From positions 5,949,501-6,013,500 of the forward strand of contig NZ_CP151076.1 in NCBI RefSeq assembly GCF_038096165.1: a DNA stretch of 64,000 nt, read 5' to 3'. The notes beneath the pieces were generated by a model. It was given only the letters and a program-made list of their open reading frames with translations. It did not search any database and had not been told where the DNA came from. Origin of the DNA: Pseudomonas sp. G.S.17. GTDB taxonomy: Bacteria; Pseudomonadota; Gammaproteobacteria; Pseudomonadales; Pseudomonadaceae. Positions 1 to 55,317 of the stretch are shown in pieces (position 1 is the stretch's first letter; the number at the start of each line of letters is the position of its first letter). The translations under genes were made by a program, and so were the position numbers.

Positions 1-798
1 TTGGTCACGGCGATTGTGACCAACGCCATGGCGCTGATCCTCGCGCTGCACATTCGCCAGCACCCGGCTTACGCGCCTTATCCAATTCTTCAGGGTTTCT
101 GGCAGCTGTCGCGCAGTCACCTCAAAGAGTTGTGGCGTCTGGGCCTGCCCATCGGCGGCACCTACGCGGTGGAAGTCGGGTTGTTCACCTTTGCGGCGTT
201 CTGCATGGGCGCGATGGGCAGCACGCAGATGGCAGCGCACCAGATCGCGCTGCAAACGGTGTCCATGGCGTTCATGATTCCCGTGGGGATTTCCTACGCC
301 GTGACCATGCGCATTGGTCAGCATTACGGCGCGGGCAATCTGTTGCTGGCGCGGACCGCCGGGCGTGCGGGCATTGTTTTCGGTGGCAGCGTGATGCTGG
401 CGTTCGGCGTGCTGTTCTGGCTGGCGCCGCATTCGATCATTGGGCTGTTCCTGGACATCAACGACCCGGCGTTCGCCGATATTGTCGATCTGGCGGTAAA
501 ACTGCTGGCGATTGCCGCCTGGTTCGAAATCCTTGATGGCACGCAAACCATCGCCATGGGCGCCATTCGCGGCTTCAAGGATGCCAAGACCACCTTCCTG
601 ATCGGGCTGGCCAGCTATTGGCTGGTGGCGGCACCTGCGGCGTGGATTCTGGGTTTCTATATGAATCAGGGCGCAGTTGGCGTGTGGTGGGGCCTGGCGC
701 TCGGCTTGCTGTGTTCGGCGCTGGCGCTGACCTACGCGTTCGAGCGCAAGACTTCGCGGTTATTGCGGCGCGAAGCGGGTGCGGCAGTGGTGGCTTGA
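1..798 (+). CDS. MATE-family multidrug/Na+ antiporter, 5'-truncated
   Basis: This is the C-terminal 265 residues of a multidrug and toxin extrusion (MATE/NorM-type) transporter. The reading frame is already open at base 1, so the true start lies outside the window; family members run to about 450-470 residues, so some 200 are missing. The visible part is strongly hydrophobic with about six membrane segments and the MATE-like stretch GLPIGGTYAVEVGLFTFAAF near the left edge. Such proteins export cationic drugs in exchange for Na+ or H+. A REP pair interrupted by an IS110 element follows it. In P. aeruginosa the gene beside the ProE-type phosphodiesterase gene and rep is also a MATE gene (PA5294, from memory), so this is probably the ortholog. 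Substrate unknown. Confidence 0.9.
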   Translation: MVTAIVTNAMALILALHIRQHPAYAPYPILQGFWQLSRSHLKELWRLGLPIGGTYAVEVGLFTFAAFCMGAMGSTQMAAHQIALQTVSMAFMIPVGISYAVTMRIGQHYGAGNLLLARTAGRAGIVFGGSVMLAFGVLFWLAPHSIIGLFLDINDPAFADIVDLAVKLLAIAAWFEILDGTQTIAMGAIRGFKDAKTTFLIGLASYWLVAAPAAWILGFYMNQGAVGVWWGLALGLLCSALALTYAFERKTSRLLRREAGAAVVA

Positions 799-815
799 AC
801 TGCTGCGGTATTCGG

Positions 816-900
816 CAGGAGGGGACTTGTCCCCGAAAATGGCCGCTCAGCCTGGGATTTGCCCGTTGTCTGGCCGATTGTCTTCGGGGACAAGTCCCCT
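816..900. repeat. REP pair, right half cut by the IS110 element
   Basis: Two facing GGGGACTTGTCCCC-type REP sequences (about 816-838 and 882-900). The second should continue CTCCTACC, as the copy ending near 7192 does, but breaks off after AAGTCCCCT at 900. The missing CCTACC reappears at 2522-2527 on the far side of the insertion element. Confidence 0.85.
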
Positions 901-942
901 CTCATCAAACATAAAATAACCCACTGTTTTGACTAAGAAAAA

Positions 943-2277
943 TCACGCAGCTTTCACCAGTTCCAATCCCAACTTGCGGGCCTTGCGCAGCAAGGCCCGC
1001 ATCTGCCTGTCTTGGGTCTTGGCTTCGTAAGCCTCCATTCCTTGTTCAACGTAAGGCTGGCCTTTGGTCAGCATTGCGTAGATCAAGCGGGCAAGTTGGT
1101 GGGCGGTTGCCTTGATCGCACAGCTGGTGTCCATCCTTGCCAAACGCGAACGATGGCTGGCACCGATGAAGCTTTTGTCATTGCGCGCATTGGAGGCGGC
1201 TTGCTTCAACGCCTGGGCTGCTCGATTCAGGACTTTGGGACCACTGCCGGGCAGCTGTCTACCGCCTGATATTCGGGTCGGGGGCGCAAGACCCAGCCAG
1301 GAACAAAAGTGTCCCGATGTCGGAAAACGTGACAAGTCAGGGCCGATCTCACTGGCGAGCACCAAGGCCGTATCTACGCCGAGGGTCGGAATAGCCGTCA
1401 GATCAACTCCCATGATTTTCCAGAGAGCCTGATGCAAACCGGCTTGCTCCGATGAAGAACGATGCGGACTGCGCAGCGCCTTGGTCGAGGGCTGAGGCTT
1501 GTCGTTGAGTGTCGGCAATTGTTCAAGCACCTGTCTGATCGCTTGGTCGCACTCAGCGATCTGCCCTTCAAGAAAGTCGTAGCAAGCCACTTCCTGAGCC
1601 AGGGCATGCAGGTGTTCCAGGCGCCAGTTGCCTCGTAAACTGCGCTCAATGGTTTCGTGATCAGCCTTGATGCGCCGATCTCGAAAAGCGGCCAGCTTTT
1701 GTGGATTACGCTCACCCTCGATAATGGCGCGCAGGATTTTCATTCCCGTCACACCCGCGATATTGCTGATCACATTGGCGAGCTGGATATTCATCTGGCT
1801 CAACGCCTTCTGCATACGGTTGAGCGTTTGAGCCTGATCGCGAACTTTATTGGCGCGCTGGCGCACTATCGAACGCATGGAGCAGATGGCGTCCGAAGGT
1901 CGGAAGGCCCCCCGCAGAAGGCCATAGCTCATGAGCTGCCAAATCCACTGGCAATCCAGCACGTCAGATTTACGGCCCGATATCTGGCGTGTGGCCCGGG
2001 AGTTGACCAGATAGACGTCGAATCCGCGGGCATCCAGAATTTCGAACAGGGGAATCCAGTAAACCCCGGTCGCCTCCATCGCGACCACGCTGATACTTAG
2101 CGATTCGAGCCAGTCGGCCAAACCGAGCAAGTCGTCGGTAAAGGTGGAAAAACTGCGCACCGGGTTATCGCATCGATCAGGGTCGACGCCAACCCAATGC
2201 TCACGACTGCCAATATCGATGCCCGCACAGTCATCGTGAACAATTCGTAAACGTTTCTGCTGGTTCTTGCGCGCCAT
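943..2277 (-). CDS. IS110-family transposase (DEDD recombinase)
   Basis: 444-residue recombinase of the IS110 family. The N-terminal RuvC-like DEDD domain shows D21 in GIDIGSREHW, E69 in VAMEATGVYW, and D105/D108 in RKSDVLDCQW. After a coiled helical region comes the C-terminal transposase_20 domain (IPTLGVDTALVLASEIG, then FCSWLGLAPP), which in this family carries the catalytic serine. The start is the ATG at 2277 (MARKNQQ); an in-frame extension of 34 residues runs into the noncoding end and is unlike other IS110 proteins. All catalytic residues and the full length are present, so the element may be active. These enzymes recombine through a circular intermediate guided by a bridge RNA encoded in the noncoding end. 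Confidence 0.95.
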   Translation of the reverse strand: MARKNQQKRLRIVHDDCAGIDIGSREHWVGVDPDRCDNPVRSFSTFTDDLLGLADWLESLSISVVAMEATGVYWIPLFEILDARGFDVYLVNSRATRQISGRKSDVLDCQWIWQLMSYGLLRGAFRPSDAICSMRSIVRQRANKVRDQAQTLNRMQKALSQMNIQLANVISNIAGVTGMKILRAIIEGERNPQKLAAFRDRRIKADHETIERSLRGNWRLEHLHALAQEVACYDFLEGQIAECDQAIRQVLEQLPTLNDKPQPSTKALRSPHRSSSEQAGLHQALWKIMGVDLTAIPTLGVDTALVLASEIGPDLSRFPTSGHFCSWLGLAPPTRISGGRQLPGSGPKVLNRAAQALKQAASNARNDKSFIGASHRSRLARMDTSCAIKATAHQLARLIYAMLTKGQPYVEQGMEAYEAKTQDRQMRALLRKARKLGLELVKAA

Positions 2278-2519
2278 GAGAATTCCTCGCAGGATTAAGG
2301 GGCGCGCGGGGTACACGGTGGCGAAAAGATTCACTCTCTCATACGTGGTCACAGCAAGCTGTGCCGACAATGACTCCACGCCGATACCGTGCGGACCACT
2401 CTCCTACTCGGGTGCTGTCACACCAGTGCGGGCTACGGTCTCTGTCCCGCGCGCACCTTCAACGCTAGACGCATCCCCCGTTTGCTGCGCGACAGCGCGG
2501 CGTCTGGACGACGGGGGAT
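2278..2519 (-). ncRNA. candidate IS110 bridge RNA region
   Basis: The 242-bp noncoding end lies upstream of the transposase, where IS110-group elements such as IS621 encode their bridge RNA. It is rich in inverted repeats; a perfect 9-bp pair, ATCCCCCGT (2473-2481) and ACGGGGGAT (2511-2519), ends exactly at the inferred element boundary. CTCCTAC at 2401-2407 equals the target sequence spanning the core dinucleotide and right flank of the insertion site, so it could belong to a target guide. Exact RNA ends and fold are not determined; location and family precedent are the main support. Confidence 0.5.
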
Positions 2520-2559
2520 CTCCTACCGGTCTCTTACTTACCTATTCTGGCTGCATTGA

Positions 2560-4227
2560 TCAAACACTACTCAACGACCGCGAAACGCCTTGATCGAAGG
2601 TCAGGAATTCAACCAGATCCGGCATCGCCAGCGGGCGGCTGATGAGGTAGCCCTGCACCTGATCGCAGCCAAAACTGCGCAACAAGGCCAGTTGCTCGAC
2701 GTTCTCGACGCCTTCGGCGACCACTTCCAGGCTCAGGTTGTGCGCCAGGTTGATCATGGCGTGGACCAGCTTGCGGTTCTCTTCGCGCTGTTCCATTTCC
2801 GCGACGAAACTCCGGTCGATCTTGAGCAGCGCAATGGGCAGGCTATTCAGATGCACGAACGACGAAAAGCCGGTGCCGAAATCATCCAGAGAAAAGCGCA
2901 CGCCCAGCTTGCCCAGCGCATCCATGGTGTGCTTGACCAGATCACTGCGGCGCATGACGGCGGTTTCAGTCAGCTCGAACTCCAGCCATTGCGCATCGAC
3001 GCCACGGTCGGCGATCAAGCGGCTCAACGTCGCCAGCAGCTGGTTGTCCTGAAACTGGCGGAACGACAGGTTGATGGCCATGTGCAGCGGCGGCATGCCG
3101 AGTTCGCGCAGCGCCTGCATGTCGCGCAGGGCCCGGGAAATCACCCAGTAGCCCAGCGGCACGATCAAGCCACTTTGCTCAGCCAGCGGCACGAATTCGC
3201 TGGGCGGCAACAGGCCACGTTCCTTATGACGCCAGCGCACCAGCGCTTCCAGGCCGACGATGCGCCCGCTGGTCAGGCAAAGCCTGGGTTGATAGTGCAG
3301 CTCCAGTTCGTCACGGCGTAGCGCGCGACGCAGTTCACTTTCCAGATCGGCTAGGCTGCGCGCGTTGCGATTGATGCGTTCGTTGAAGACATGAAAGGTG
3401 CAGCCCTGGACACCCTTGGCTTGTTGCATGGCGATGTGTGCATGCCACATCAGCGGATCGGCGCCGGCCAGAGCACGCGAGTGGGCGATGCCCAGGCTGC
3501 AACCGATCAGCAGGCTTTCGCCATCAACCCAATAAGGCTCGGCCAGCGCTTCGGTGATGCGCTCGGCCATCCACTCGGCGCGGCGTGGTGCCCGCCGCGT
3601 GTCGATCAACAAGGCAAATTCGTCGCTGCCAAGGCGGGCGATCTGATCGCCAACCTCCAGCTGGCTTTTGAGGCGTGCCACAACCTGCAGAATCAGTCGA
3701 TCACCCGCCTGATGGCCGAGGGCATCGTTGGCGCGGCGAAAGTTGTCCAGATCAAGATGCCCGAGGGCTAGCCCGCGGCCTTCGTTTTCCAGCAAACGCG
3801 CGGTCAGCAACGTCTGAAAACCCTGGCGATTGGCGATGCCGGTCATCGTGTCCTGTTCGGCCAGGCGTTGCAGCGTGTCTTCCAGCAAGCCTTTTTCGCG
3901 GATATGCCGCAGGCAGCGGCGCACGGTGTCAGTCGTCAGGCTGCTGCGTACCAGCCAGTCAACAGCACCGACTGGTCCGACAGACGGTTCCTGTTCCAGC
4001 AGCATTACGACAGGCAAACTGCAGCGTCCCGGCGCGGGTTGCAGCGCGGGTGTGGTCAGCAGCACCGTATTACCCTGGTCGACAATATGCTCGCTGACTT
4101 CATTCCAGTGCGCGACACACAGCAACTCAATGCCATCGAGGGAAACCAGGCAAACGCGAAGCAATGCTAGCCATTCCGGCTCTCGGGCCAGCAATAACAG
4201 TCGCACGGGTTGGAAAAGCGTAGACAA
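2560..4227 (-). CDS. GGDEF-EAL cyclic-di-GMP phosphodiesterase (ProE-like)
   Basis: 555-residue soluble protein. Residues about 1-115 resemble a receiver fold without an evident phosphoacceptor; about 120-290 is a GGDEF domain whose signature is degenerate (GSDEF), so cyclase activity is doubtful; about 305-545 is an EAL domain with the key motifs (LEALVRW, NLSFRQF, ELTET, DDFGTGFSS, KIDRSFV, EGVE, QGY), so it should hydrolyse c-di-GMP. The only credible start is TTG at 4227, with GGGAGC just upstream. Position beside rep and a MATE gene matches PA5295 (ProE) of P. aeruginosa, reported to lower c-di-GMP and exopolysaccharide. The gene is complete; the IS110 element stops about 40 bp beyond its stop codon. 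Confidence 0.9.
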   Translation of the reverse strand: MSTLFQPVRLLLLAREPEWLALLRVCLVSLDGIELLCVAHWNEVSEHIVDQGNTVLLTTPALQPAPGRCSLPVVMLLEQEPSVGPVGAVDWLVRSSLTTDTVRRCLRHIREKGLLEDTLQRLAEQDTMTGIANRQGFQTLLTARLLENEGRGLALGHLDLDNFRRANDALGHQAGDRLILQVVARLKSQLEVGDQIARLGSDEFALLIDTRRAPRRAEWMAERITEALAEPYWVDGESLLIGCSLGIAHSRALAGADPLMWHAHIAMQQAKGVQGCTFHVFNERINRNARSLADLESELRRALRRDELELHYQPRLCLTSGRIVGLEALVRWRHKERGLLPPSEFVPLAEQSGLIVPLGYWVISRALRDMQALRELGMPPLHMAINLSFRQFQDNQLLATLSRLIADRGVDAQWLEFELTETAVMRRSDLVKHTMDALGKLGVRFSLDDFGTGFSSFVHLNSLPIALLKIDRSFVAEMEQREENRKLVHAMINLAHNLSLEVVAEGVENVEQLALLRSFGCDQVQGYLISRPLAMPDLVEFLTFDQGVSRSLSSV

Positions 4228-4443
4228 GCTAGCTCCCTAGGCTCGTCAAGGACGAGCAACAAAGCCCAAAGACGCGGGGCCAAACCAGCGCCTTTACAGC
4301 GCATTGGTACGCAAATGTAACAAACCTTACAGGATTAGATAGCGCAGCGATATTTAGTGCAAGTACGGGGGCGGACGGTGACCGCACAAACGTCCCAGCC
4401 TGTTAAAATGCCCGCCCATTTCGCTTGTGACCCTCTCCCTGAC

Positions 4444-7070
<2,627 letters not shown>

Positions 7071-7091
7071 TTGAAACAAATCATTCGCTCG

Positions 7092-7192
7092 GTAGGAGGG
7101 GACTTGTCCCCGAACGCAATTTGCCCGACAACGAGATATCCGAAAATCAACGCCGCTTGAACTAACGTTTTCGGGGACGAGTCCCCTCCTAC
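7092..7192. repeat. REP pair (GGGGACTTGTCCCC type)
   Basis: Two facing REP units, GTAGGAGGGGACTTGTCCCC near 7092 and the inverse ending CCTCCTACC near 7192, separated by about 60 bp. It lies between xpt and the sulfide operon and gives the intact REP sequence used to reconstruct the IS110 target. Confidence 0.9.
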
Positions 7193-7212
7193 CAGAATCC
7201 TTGTTGCCAGCA

Positions 7213-7227
7213 GGTATCGGGAATACC
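7213..7227. promoter_or_regulatory. short palindrome ahead of the sulfide operon
   Basis: GGTAT-CGGGA-ATACC is a perfect 5-bp inverted repeat about 45 bp upstream of the dioxygenase start. It could be an operator for a sulfide or persulfide sensor. No sigma54-type -24/-12 element was found here, which argues against FisR-like control. Position is the only support. Confidence 0.25.
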
Positions 7228-7270
7228 CAACCCACCACCCGCCAGCTTCAACAACCGTTTTGGAGACCAA

Positions 7271-8155
7271 ATGATCATTGGCGAGCGCTTGTACATCGAA
7301 GCACTGTTCGATCCTCATACCTCGACCATCAGCTATCTGGTCATGGACCTGAGCAGCAAACACTGCGCCCTGATCGACAGCGTGCTGGATTACGACCCCA
7401 AGTCCGGGCGCACCGGCACCGAGTCCGCCGACCGCTTGATCGCCCGTGTTCGGGAGCTGCAAGCCTCGGTGCAATGGATTCTCGAAACCCATGTCCACGC
7501 CGATCATCTTTCCGCAGCCGCGTACCTGAAAGACCAGCTGCACGGGCAGATCGCTATCGGCAGCCATATCACCCAGGTGCAGAAAGTGTTCGGTGCGCTG
7601 TTCAACGCGCCGGGCAGTTTTGCCCGCGATGGCAGTCAGTTCGACGTGCTGCTGGGCGACGGCATGTCATTCCAGATCGGCACGCTTGAAGCGCGGGCGA
7701 TGCACACGCCCGGCCACACTCCGGCGTGCATGACGTACCTGGTGGAAGTGGCGGGCGAAACCGTGGCGTTCGTTGGCGACACTTTATTCATGCCCGACTA
7801 CGGCACCGCGCGCTGCGACTTCCCCGGCGCCGACGCCCGGACGCTGTATCGCTCGATTCACAAGATCCTCAGCCTGCCGGCCAGCACACGACTGTTCATG
7901 TGCCATGACTACCTGCCAAACGGCCGCGAACTGCGATACATGACCACGGTTGCCGAGCAGCGCGCCGAGAATATCCACATCCACGAAGGCATCGATGAAG
8001 ACGCGTTCGTGAAGATGCGCGAAGCCCGCGATGCAACCCTGGACATGCCCGTGCTGATCCTGCCTTCGGTACAGATCAACATGCGTTGCGGCCACCTTCC
8101 AGAGCCGGAAGAAAACGGCATCAGCTACCTGAAAATCCCGCTTAACGTCCTTTGA
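7271..8155 (+). CDS. persulfide dioxygenase-like metallo-beta-lactamase protein
   Basis: 294-residue metallo-beta-lactamase-fold protein of the ETHE1/Blh persulfide dioxygenase group, which oxidises glutathione persulfide to sulfite with non-heme iron. Metal-binding motifs are HVHADH (about residues 75-80), the TPGHTP histidine, VGDTLF and MCHDY. GGAG precedes the ATG at 7271. The next genes encode an SQR-like flavoprotein and a sulfite-type exporter, forming a pathway from sulfide to persulfide to sulfite to export, which supports this role over a glyoxalase II role. Confidence 0.88.
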   Translation: MIIGERLYIEALFDPHTSTISYLVMDLSSKHCALIDSVLDYDPKSGRTGTESADRLIARVRELQASVQWILETHVHADHLSAAAYLKDQLHGQIAIGSHITQVQKVFGALFNAPGSFARDGSQFDVLLGDGMSFQIGTLEARAMHTPGHTPACMTYLVEVAGETVAFVGDTLFMPDYGTARCDFPGADARTLYRSIHKILSLPASTRLFMCHDYLPNGRELRYMTTVAEQRAENIHIHEGIDEDAFVKMREARDATLDMPVLILPSVQINMRCGHLPEPEENGISYLKIPLNVL

Positions 8156-16293: not shown

Positions 16294-16401
16294 CTGTAGG
16301 AGCGGACTTGTGTGGGAGCGAGCTTGCTCGCGAAGGCGATGTTTCAGGCCAGGAAGATGCATTGGATGTACTGGCATTTTCGCGAGCAAGCTCGCTCCCA
16401 C
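16294..16401. repeat. REP pair plus a partial REP
   Basis: A truncated CTGTAGGAGCGGACTTG arm (16294-16310), then a full GTGGGAGCGAGCTTGCTCGCG unit at 16312 and its inverse ending GCTCCCAC at 16401. A separate palindromic element abuts its right end. Confidence 0.88.
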
Positions 16402-54162: not shown

Positions 54163-55317
54163 GATTCGCGAGCAAGCTCGCTCCCACAGGTATCTCATAT
54201 TCCGTGGGAGCGAGCTTGCTCGCGAAGAATTTGACGCGGTATTCCTGATGAGCCGCATCAGCCCAATTCGCGGGCAAGTCTCGCTCCCACAGGTATCACA
54301 TATTCCGTGGGAGCGAGCTTGCTCGCGAAGAATTTGACGCGGTATTCCTGATGAGCCGCATCAGCCCGATTCGCGAGCAAGCTCGCTCCCACAGGTATCT
54401 CATATTCCGTGGGAGCGAGCTTGCTCGCGAAGAATTTGACGCGGTATTCCTGATGAGCCGCATCAGCCCAATTCGCGAGCAAGCTCGCTCCCACAGGTAT
54501 CACATATTCCGTGGGAGCGAGCTTGCTCGCGAAGAATTTGACGCGGTATTCCTGATGAGCCGCATCAGCCCGATTCGCGAGCAAGCTCGCTCCCACAGGT
54601 ATCTCATATTCCGTGGGAGCGAGCTTGCTCGCGAAGAATTTGACGCGGTATTCCTGATGAGCCCCATCAGCCCGATTCGCGGGCAAGCCTCGCTCCCACA
54701 GGTATCTCATATTCCGTGGGAGCGAGCTTGCTCGCGAAGAATTTGACGCGGTATTCCTGATGAGCCGCATCAGCCCAATTCGCGGGCAAGCCTCGCTCCC
54801 ACAGGTATCTCATATTCCGTGGGAGCGAGCTTGCTCGCGAAGAATTTGACGCGGTATTCCTGATGAGCCGCATCAGCCCAATTCGCGGGCAAGCCTCGCT
54901 CCCACAGGTATCTCATATTCCGTGGGAGCGAGCTTGCTCGCGAAGAATTTGACGCGGTATTCCTGATGAGCCGCATCAGCCCAATTCGCGGGCAAGCCTC
55001 GCTCCCACAGGTATCTCATATTCCGTGGGAGCGAGCTTGCTCGCGAAGAATTTGACGCGGTATTCCTGATGAGCCGCATCAGCCCAATTCGCGGGCAAGT
55101 CTCGCTCCCACAGGTATCTCATATTCCGTGGGAGCGAGCTTGCTCGCGAAGAATTTGACGCGGTATTCCTGATGAGCCGCATCAGCCCAATTCGCGGGCA
55201 AGTCTCGCTCCCACAGGTATCTCATATTCCGTGGGAGCGAGCTTGCTCGCGAAGAATTTGACGCGGTATTCCTGATGAGCCGCATCAGCCCGATTCGCGG
55301 GCAAGCCTCGCTCCCAC
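54163..55317. repeat. tandem array of eleven 102-103 bp REP doublets
   Basis: Units begin GTGGGAGCGAGCTTGCTCG at 54204, 54307, 54409, 54511, 54613, 54716, 54819, 54922, 55025, 55128 and 55231. Each holds the same forward REP, a near-invariant 40-bp linker (AATTTGACGCGGTATTCCTG...), an inverse REP and a short tail (CAGGTATCTCATATTCC). Spacing is 103 bp where the inverse arm reads CGGGCAAGCCTCGC and 102 where it reads CGAGCAAGCTCGC. A half unit precedes the first (from 54163). The array starts after the EAL gene and ends 11 bp from the convergent kinB stop codon; it has no gene. Confidence 0.95.

Follow-up and report, generated by a model that had tools for sequence, protein, structure and literature searches.

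A REP-interrupting IS110 element of the ISPpu9 group with a predicted bridge RNA in its left end

The order of guides in the RNAs of IS110-superfamily elements has been described for several systems. In the RNA of IS621, each left guide comes before its right counterpart (left target guide A50-U58, right target guide G77-G80, left donor guide A123-C130, right donor guide A157-U158/C162-G165; PMC11208158). ISEc21, an IS110 member, has the IS621 order and its RNA upstream of the transposase gene (tnp), and IS1111 elements have the reverse order and an RNA downstream of tnp (PMC11187229). ISPpu9, for its part, was found at REPs in all seven of its copies (PMC1525189), and two small RNAs have been described for it. 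Asr9 is a stable RNA of about 180 nt, antisense to the 244-nt tnp leader, and Ssr9 is a sense RNA of about 180 nt whose segment ends in the A and B boxes that also delimit ISPpu9 itself; this segment lies behind tnp in five of the seven ISPpu9 copies, and its three orphans are apparently outside REPs (PMC8450116). In the same account, regulation was proposed and mobilization was left open, and PMC11208160 remarks that small RNAs had been taken to modulate expression of the ISPpu9 recombinase. In a literature search that covered the text of published, mostly open-access papers, we found nothing on ISPpu9 and seekRNA; within that text, no description of a bridge-RNA layout of ISPpu9 was found beyond that remark, and one may exist elsewhere.

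The stretch of DNA analyzed here (the window) comprises 64,000 nucleotides of Pseudomonas sp. G.S.17, and in it a complete IS110 element interrupts a REP (Table 1). Removal of 901-2521 restores the REP AAGTCCCCTCCTACC, and the same empty site results from four cut points, 899/2519 to 902/2522, with a 3-base repeat CTC (GAG in the sense of tnp) on both sides of the element. The original prediction had named a two-base CT core. CT does stand at the junctions, but it lies within the 3-base repeat, and a CT (or AG) core is one choice within the flanking CTC/GAG rather than the sole reading. The prediction had further called the restored REP identical to an intact one near 7178-7192; the intact REP at 7179-7193 is a near match, differing at one base (14 of 15 identical). 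Its remarks that long terminal repeats are lacking and that the transposase is complete both hold, as a repeat search found neither a long terminal inverted repeat nor long subterminal repeats in the element, and the 444-residue protein has both IS110 domains. The left end is the longer one (244 nt versus 42 nt), as is usual for the IS110 group. That the insertion is recent, as had been proposed, is borne out by five full copies at 100% identity in this genome and by an empty site in a sister genome. When the joined flanks (820 bp) were searched against 398 genomes of the genus, conservation of the flanking genes led to matches in all 398; of the matches listed, that to genome G022 was the one foreign match of full length, at 92%, and the orthologous site of G022 reads GGGGACAAGTCCCCTCCTACCGG, an uninterrupted REP between orthologous flanks with no base lost or gained at the joint. 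G022 is absent from the genomes with a transposase match (E 1e-60) or an RNA-model match.

Table 1. Features of the window element and transposase-less relatives
Feature	Position in window	Strand	Remarks and basis
IS110 element, assigned to the ISPpu9 group	901..2521	-	1621 bp; copies, sister empty site, protein identity, restored site
Element ends	LE at 2521, RE at 901		tnp sense is the minus strand
Equivalent element limits	899-2519 to 902-2522		3-base ambiguity
REP, left part (right target in tnp sense)	881..900	+	sequence, sister genome
REP, right part CTCCTACC (left target GTAGGAG in tnp sense)	2520..2527	+	sequence, sister genome
RE tip GTTTGATGAGAG, core included	899..910	-	end comparison
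Transposase gene	943..2277	-	444 aa, ATG at 2277; ORF, domain search, alignment, profile
Left-end non-coding region	2278..2521	-	244 nt
LE tip	2480..2519	-	40 nt; probably corresponds to the A box (41 nt) described for ISPpu9
Predicted bridge RNA	2302..2456 (approximate)	-	comprises a closing stem and two loops, one target-binding and one donor-binding
Predicted left target guide CGAGTAGGAG	2401..2410	-	3' side of target loop; its end equals left target GTAGGAG
Putative right target guide	2428..2435	-	5' side of target loop; no statistical support
Predicted left donor guide CGTATGAGAG	2336..2345	-	3' side of donor loop; its end equals RE end ATGAGAG
L115			mini-element, 347 bp, transposase-less, both ends read
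L116			mini-element, 346 bp, transposase-less, both ends read
L117			mini-element, 346 bp, transposase-less, both ends read
L178			mini-element, 348 bp, P. aeruginosa plasmid, transposase-less, both ends read
L050			mini-element, 361 bp, transposase-less, both ends read, directly behind RE of a full element

The transposase combines the domains DEDD_Tnp_IS110 and Transposase_20, the latter with its conserved serine, as proteins of the IS110 family do, and residues D21, E68, D105, D108, and S337 are invariant among 13 aligned proteins. A protein search scored 8000 candidates, all with E 1e-20 or better; among the best 120 of these, which were examined, is P0052, named in its source an ISPpu9 family transposase (P. 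putida) and 74% identical over its full length. A 22-protein tree, rooted at the midpoint, with two long branches flagged and IS621 not among its members, unites the 14 ISPpu9-like rows in one group (99/99) whose neighbors are three IS110 proteins (ISArsp3, Alicyclobacillus, Rhodococcus), and it sets five IS1111-type proteins apart (100/100); IS1383 and ISShdy1 in this tree we take to be of IS1111 type. The relative L063 was left out of the alignment and tree on account of stop codons in its stretch, and its guide was kept among the distant relatives considered below. As a single sequence the window transposase gave no match to IS621, and the profile of 13 relatives alone matches, over both domains, the IS621 chain 8wt6 (E 1.8e-16) and ISCro4 (E 1.1e-12). 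A scan of GTDB contigs yielded 24 relatives, and at E 1e-60 the transposase matches proteins in 18 of the 398 genomes of the genus. With a close transposase, a REP target, and AG at both junctions, the element is, judged by sequence, a new member of the ISPpu9 group. It has no long subterminal repeats, no RNA downstream of tnp, and no IS1111-type transposase, and by protein and anatomy we file it in the IS110 group, not as an IS621 type. The REP targeting that had been foreseen holds, as does the kinship to ISPpu9; the likeness also drawn to ISPa11 concerns the distant IS1111 group (PMC11187229). A related subfamily (L071-L079 and L093, tnp about 43% identical) occurs in Pseudomonas and on a Citrobacter plasmid at [CT]TAAAAAA sites; its donor guide obeys the donor rule given below, and the surroundings of most of its sites resemble an IS3-family orfA.

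Besides the five full copies, the genome contains one 458-bp fragment. There are five distinct sites (the window, L002, L003, L004, and a place at 70.9 kb, L005/L006), and at all five the left target in the tnp sense is GTAGGAG. The original prediction expected other copies to lie in REPs. A canonical REP is indeed restored at three of the five sites, and L002 lies inside a REP array, but L003 and L004 restore the foot alone, beside a REP: at L003, GTAGGAG is followed by TGAACTTGT and then another REP, and at L004 by AGTGGCTC and then another REP. Damaged right flanks were considered for these two sites and dropped; like-built sites stand uninterrupted at 16296 and 54158 of the window. The sister genome also has a single intact REP at the 70.9-kb place; a search for a contiguous sister site of L002 gave none, and at L003 and L004 the sister region is too divergent for an empty site to be read. 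Of the outcomes that had been named as counting against the prediction, other flanks in a sister genome and copies outside REPs, neither is seen for the window site. The 70.9-kb place (G000:C1:70454-72537) is itself composite: behind a full copy stand the final ~459 bases of a second one, and the two together occupy one REP; insertion into a copy, then homologous recombination, would account for it.

To count REPs, we took palindromes within the window with a foot of G+TA/TG/TT/CG/CA+GGAG and an arm of 6 or more. The 29 REPs so found (the original prediction spoke of more than a dozen) have the foot GTGGGAG in 23 cases, GTAGGAG in five, and GCAGGAG in one; 15 of the 23 GTGGGAG REPs are in a single array. 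Despite this predominance, GTGGGAG is the foot at none of the five insertion sites, a preference that rests on the window count. GTAGGAG is the foot of several REP types, one family of which has 98 exact matches in the genome. Because L003 and L004 restore the foot without a canonical REP, we suggest that the 7-base foot GTAGGAG is recognized rather than the REP palindrome. With no GTGGGAG foot among the five sites, the target set is probably narrower than all REPs. Even so, the 98 matches of one GTAGGAG family are in keeping with the large target set proposed earlier.

Several other repeats of this genome adjoin REPs or resemble parts of the element. The array of GTGGGAGCGAGCTTGCTCGCGAA-type REPs at 54187-55231 of the window has 15 members. 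A second IS110-superfamily element, of IS1111 type and with a long right end, is present in seven copies (L100-L106; G000:C1 near 591549, 1316107, 1710300, 3972238, 4222976, 5273012, and 5925783); its subterminal repeats are TGGACTCGCCC / GGGCGAGTCCA, and in all seven copies its right side adjoins a REP starting TAGGACCGGCTT[TC]AGCCGGGAG. Solitary LE-tip copies of ~30-40 nt (L007-L011) lie on G000:C1 near 3247491, 2722898, 4119936, 2375054, and 4859326, three of them directly 3' of a GTAGGAG or GTGGGAG foot and four of the five located five bases before CACCCGTTGG, with no bridge-RNA match there. These copies may have been left behind by ancient insertions, or they may form a unit that is duplicated together with REPs.

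What the original prediction did not notice is a predicted guide RNA in the left end, which would account for the choice of target. The left ends of 12 elements align and share a common fold of 44 pairs, 10 of them changed on both sides, and the single-sequence fold of 2285-2470 has a z of -2.53. An RNA model (R1) built for this region and searched against the 398 genus genomes gave matches in 13; in this genome it matches at five places, which are the five full copies. The RNA region is thus conserved in the left end, where the IS110 group has it. No Rfam match was found within 1-8000 of the window at E up to 1, a sigma-70 promoter scan of the IS region gave none, and the two terminator-like sites there are about the shuffle mean. 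Phages gave no match to the left end of the window element, and viral contigs gave none to ISPpu9 protein patterns; in the latter, 55 and 84 stretches had two short motifs, none with an RNA-model match. In the left ends of five relatives (L042, L051, L055, L067, and L090), the LE tip and the bridge RNA are separated by a GC-rich hairpin with a T-rich flank, which may terminate an Asr9-like antisense RNA; no such hairpin was seen in the window element.

The argument for guiding rests on comparison among elements. We tabulated 29 insertions, 24 with a transposase (four of the window type, seven from P. zanjanensis, four from G020, and nine single) and five without. Among the transposase-bearing rows, the tnp of L070 matches over residues 1-371 only and that of L082 is broken. 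In all 24 transposase-bearing rows, the last seven bases of the left target guide equal the left target at 7/7 positions, and the last seven of the left donor guide likewise equal the RE end. These sequences differ between elements: in P. zanjanensis guide and target are both GCGAGGGAG, L047 and L050 pair the donor guide ATAGGAG with the right end GATAGGAG, and L052, L070, and L082 pair ATAAGAG with GATAAGAG. In a shuffle test of 17 elements with the core omitted (18 rows, less L122 and L129 of G039, whose similarity runs past the presumed 264-bp end and whose right ends are not fixable, plus L178), the left target guide scored 5.93 of 8 against its own site and 4.40 against those of others, and the left donor guide 5.06 of 6 against its own RE and 3.63 against others, each reached in none of 100,000 shuffles, although shared ancestry of the elements makes the shuffles too optimistic. 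The corresponding counts per 100,000 were 15 and 9 for the 12 transposase-bearing elements alone and 1 and 3 for one element per guide type (10 elements). The donor rule also appears in eight distant relatives (L057, L058, L060-L063, L072, and L093; tnp 42-57% identical), with guide places chosen by eye, where the own score is 7.0 of 8 versus 5.16 for others (5 of 100,000 shuffles). The left target and left donor guides thus vary in step with their DNA. A right target guide is not supported: its own score over the 17 elements is 3.12 of 7 pairs versus 2.88 (12,831 of 100,000 shuffles), the subsets give 28,886 (12 transposase-bearing) and 15,054 (one per guide type) of 100,000, and L042 has 0 of 7 pairs. 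No convincing right donor guide was found in the elements.

Taken together, the element is very probably mobile, an IS110 member of the ISPpu9 group that is guided by a bridge RNA. By analogy with IS621, it would leave as a circle joining RE to LE; the recombinase and RNA would use the donor loop to hold the joint of the circle and the target loop to hold a GTAGGAG site; and strand exchange would take place within GAG at two core bases, which read AG in the tnp sense and CT on the other strand. That the match of guide and target could have a simpler origin deserves consideration, since all five sites are in or beside REPs and REPs can form hairpins. The transposase itself might recognize such a hairpin, and the match would be a by-product of captured target DNA. 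We regard this as very improbable: two of the five sites restore no canonical REP palindrome, the related L071-L079 and L093 elements sit at [CT]TAAAAAA, and capture of target DNA does not explain why the donor guide tracks the element's own end. An RNA may also guide from the other strand. In ISPpu9, the antisense RNA that covers the leader of tnp (~180 nt) was found to be abundant and very stable (PMC8450116), and in the window element both strands fold (-44.2 sense, -41.0 antisense), so that an Asr9-like RNA might be the guide and the sense strand merely the leader of tnp. This, too, seems unlikely, if less so than hairpin recognition, because the guides of a loop in IS621 run from outside to the core (PMC11208158), as do the left guides of the sense RNA, while those of the antisense would run the other way, and the sense fold is the more stable in nine of 12 elements, which lends it slight support. 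A strand test based on G-U pairs was rejected as biased towards the strand from which the structure came.

Granting a sense-strand bridge RNA, its layout remains to be placed. The window element has its RNA upstream of tnp, each of the two loops has its left guide 3', and the IS621 layout, with the left guide 5' of the right and a CT core in the tnp sense, is not found. The order is IS1111-like in the 3' position of the left guide; a 5' position of the right guide is suggested and is statistically unsupported. The ISPpu9-group layout would accordingly be a variant of the bridge-RNA kind matching the anatomy of neither IS621 nor IS1111. Alternatively, the reversed order may be a matter of labels, a reading toward which we lean: turning the DNA by 180 degrees converts the IS621 arrangement into that of the window element, and the non-tnp strand then has CT as its core. 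Chemically nothing would differ, and the ends would be flipped relative to transcription, a view compatible with bridge-RNA guiding and, we think, its likely meaning. After rotation, however, a difference from the published IS110 rule remains.

Five transposase-less relatives with both ends read (L050, L115, L116, L117, and L178) raise a further question. These mini-elements (346-361 bp) consist of both ends and the predicted bridge RNA alone. Their donor guides match their own ends, less well in L117, and in four of the five the target guide equals the left target at 7/7 bases. L115, L116, and L178 have the target guide CGAATGAGAG and left targets ending ATGAGAG; L117 has CGAATGAAAG against an ATGAGGG target, with two differences in seven; and the mini at L050 has CGAATAGGAG against the helper end GATAGGAG. 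The target guide of L115, L116, and L178 agrees at 9/10 bases with the donor guide of window-type helpers and at no more than 7/10 with the target guides of transposase-bearing elements. No related transposase at E 1e-10 was found in six of the seven genomes rechecked, including G081 and G193 (several are drafts), and G103 has a 74-residue transposase piece; relatives of G103 gave no additional match, and phages gave none to the L178 mini. In G039 there are more copies without a transposase, with right ends that could not be placed. In the text of published, mostly open-access papers, we found no literature on non-autonomous IS110 elements with a bridge RNA and none on the subject, by title, for IS110 MITEs with transposase and non-coding RNA.

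We tentatively offer a reading of these observations that we hold to be possible, if somewhat more doubtful than probable. The ISPpu9 clade would represent a third IS110-superfamily layout, with a left-end bridge RNA and reversed guide polarity, that is exploited by its own guide RNA: minis whose target guide is aimed at a helper's right end would dock there, ride along, and leave orphans at chance sites. It is favored because the L050 mini sits exactly behind a helper right end, because the target guides of L115, L116, and L178 fit the helper donor guide better than any target guide of transposase-bearing elements, and because ssr9 segments with the A and B boxes of ISPpu9 lie behind tnp or, as orphans, outside REPs in the published description (PMC8450116). 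By analogy, the tnp leader of ISPpu9 may contain a bridge RNA and the ssr9 segment may be a mini-element, in which case Ssr9 would be the bridge RNA of a satellite and not a regulator alone; no ssr9-like segment was found in the present genome. The reading is weakened because the L050 guide fits the REP guide of the window element equally well (9/10), because a real helper end is at none of the four other minis, and because no related transposase was found in G081 and G193, and in G103 only the 74-residue piece.

If guiding operates as predicted, this is a REP-hunting IS whose target choice can be read from its own sequence. The ISPpu9 group, with several foot and right-end types, would offer a natural reprogramming series for the rules of bridge RNAs, and its layout bears on the evolution of the IS110 and IS1111 arrangements. 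Should the satellites be real, RNA-guided IS have non-autonomous followers with addresses of their own, and two published small RNAs would need re-reading.

Among known systems, ISPpu9 of P. putida KT2440 is closest, with its full-length transposase similarity, REP target, AG direct repeat, and long tnp leader (PMC1525189, PMC8450116); the difference is that the published account, which predates the discovery of bridge RNAs, treats Asr9 and Ssr9 as regulators. The element resembles IS621 and ISCro4 in the recombinase profile match, an RNA in the left end, and two guide loops, and IS621 also in its REP target. In IS621, unlike the window element, each loop has its left guide 5', and the core is CT in the tnp sense rather than lying within GAG. 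With the IS1111 seekRNA group (ISPa11, ISKpn4, IS4321), in whose RNA a match to the top strand comes first and one to the bottom strand second (PMC11187229), the element would share this order to the extent that the left guide indicates it, whereas the downstream RNA and long subterminal repeats of that group set it apart from the left-end arrangement seen here.
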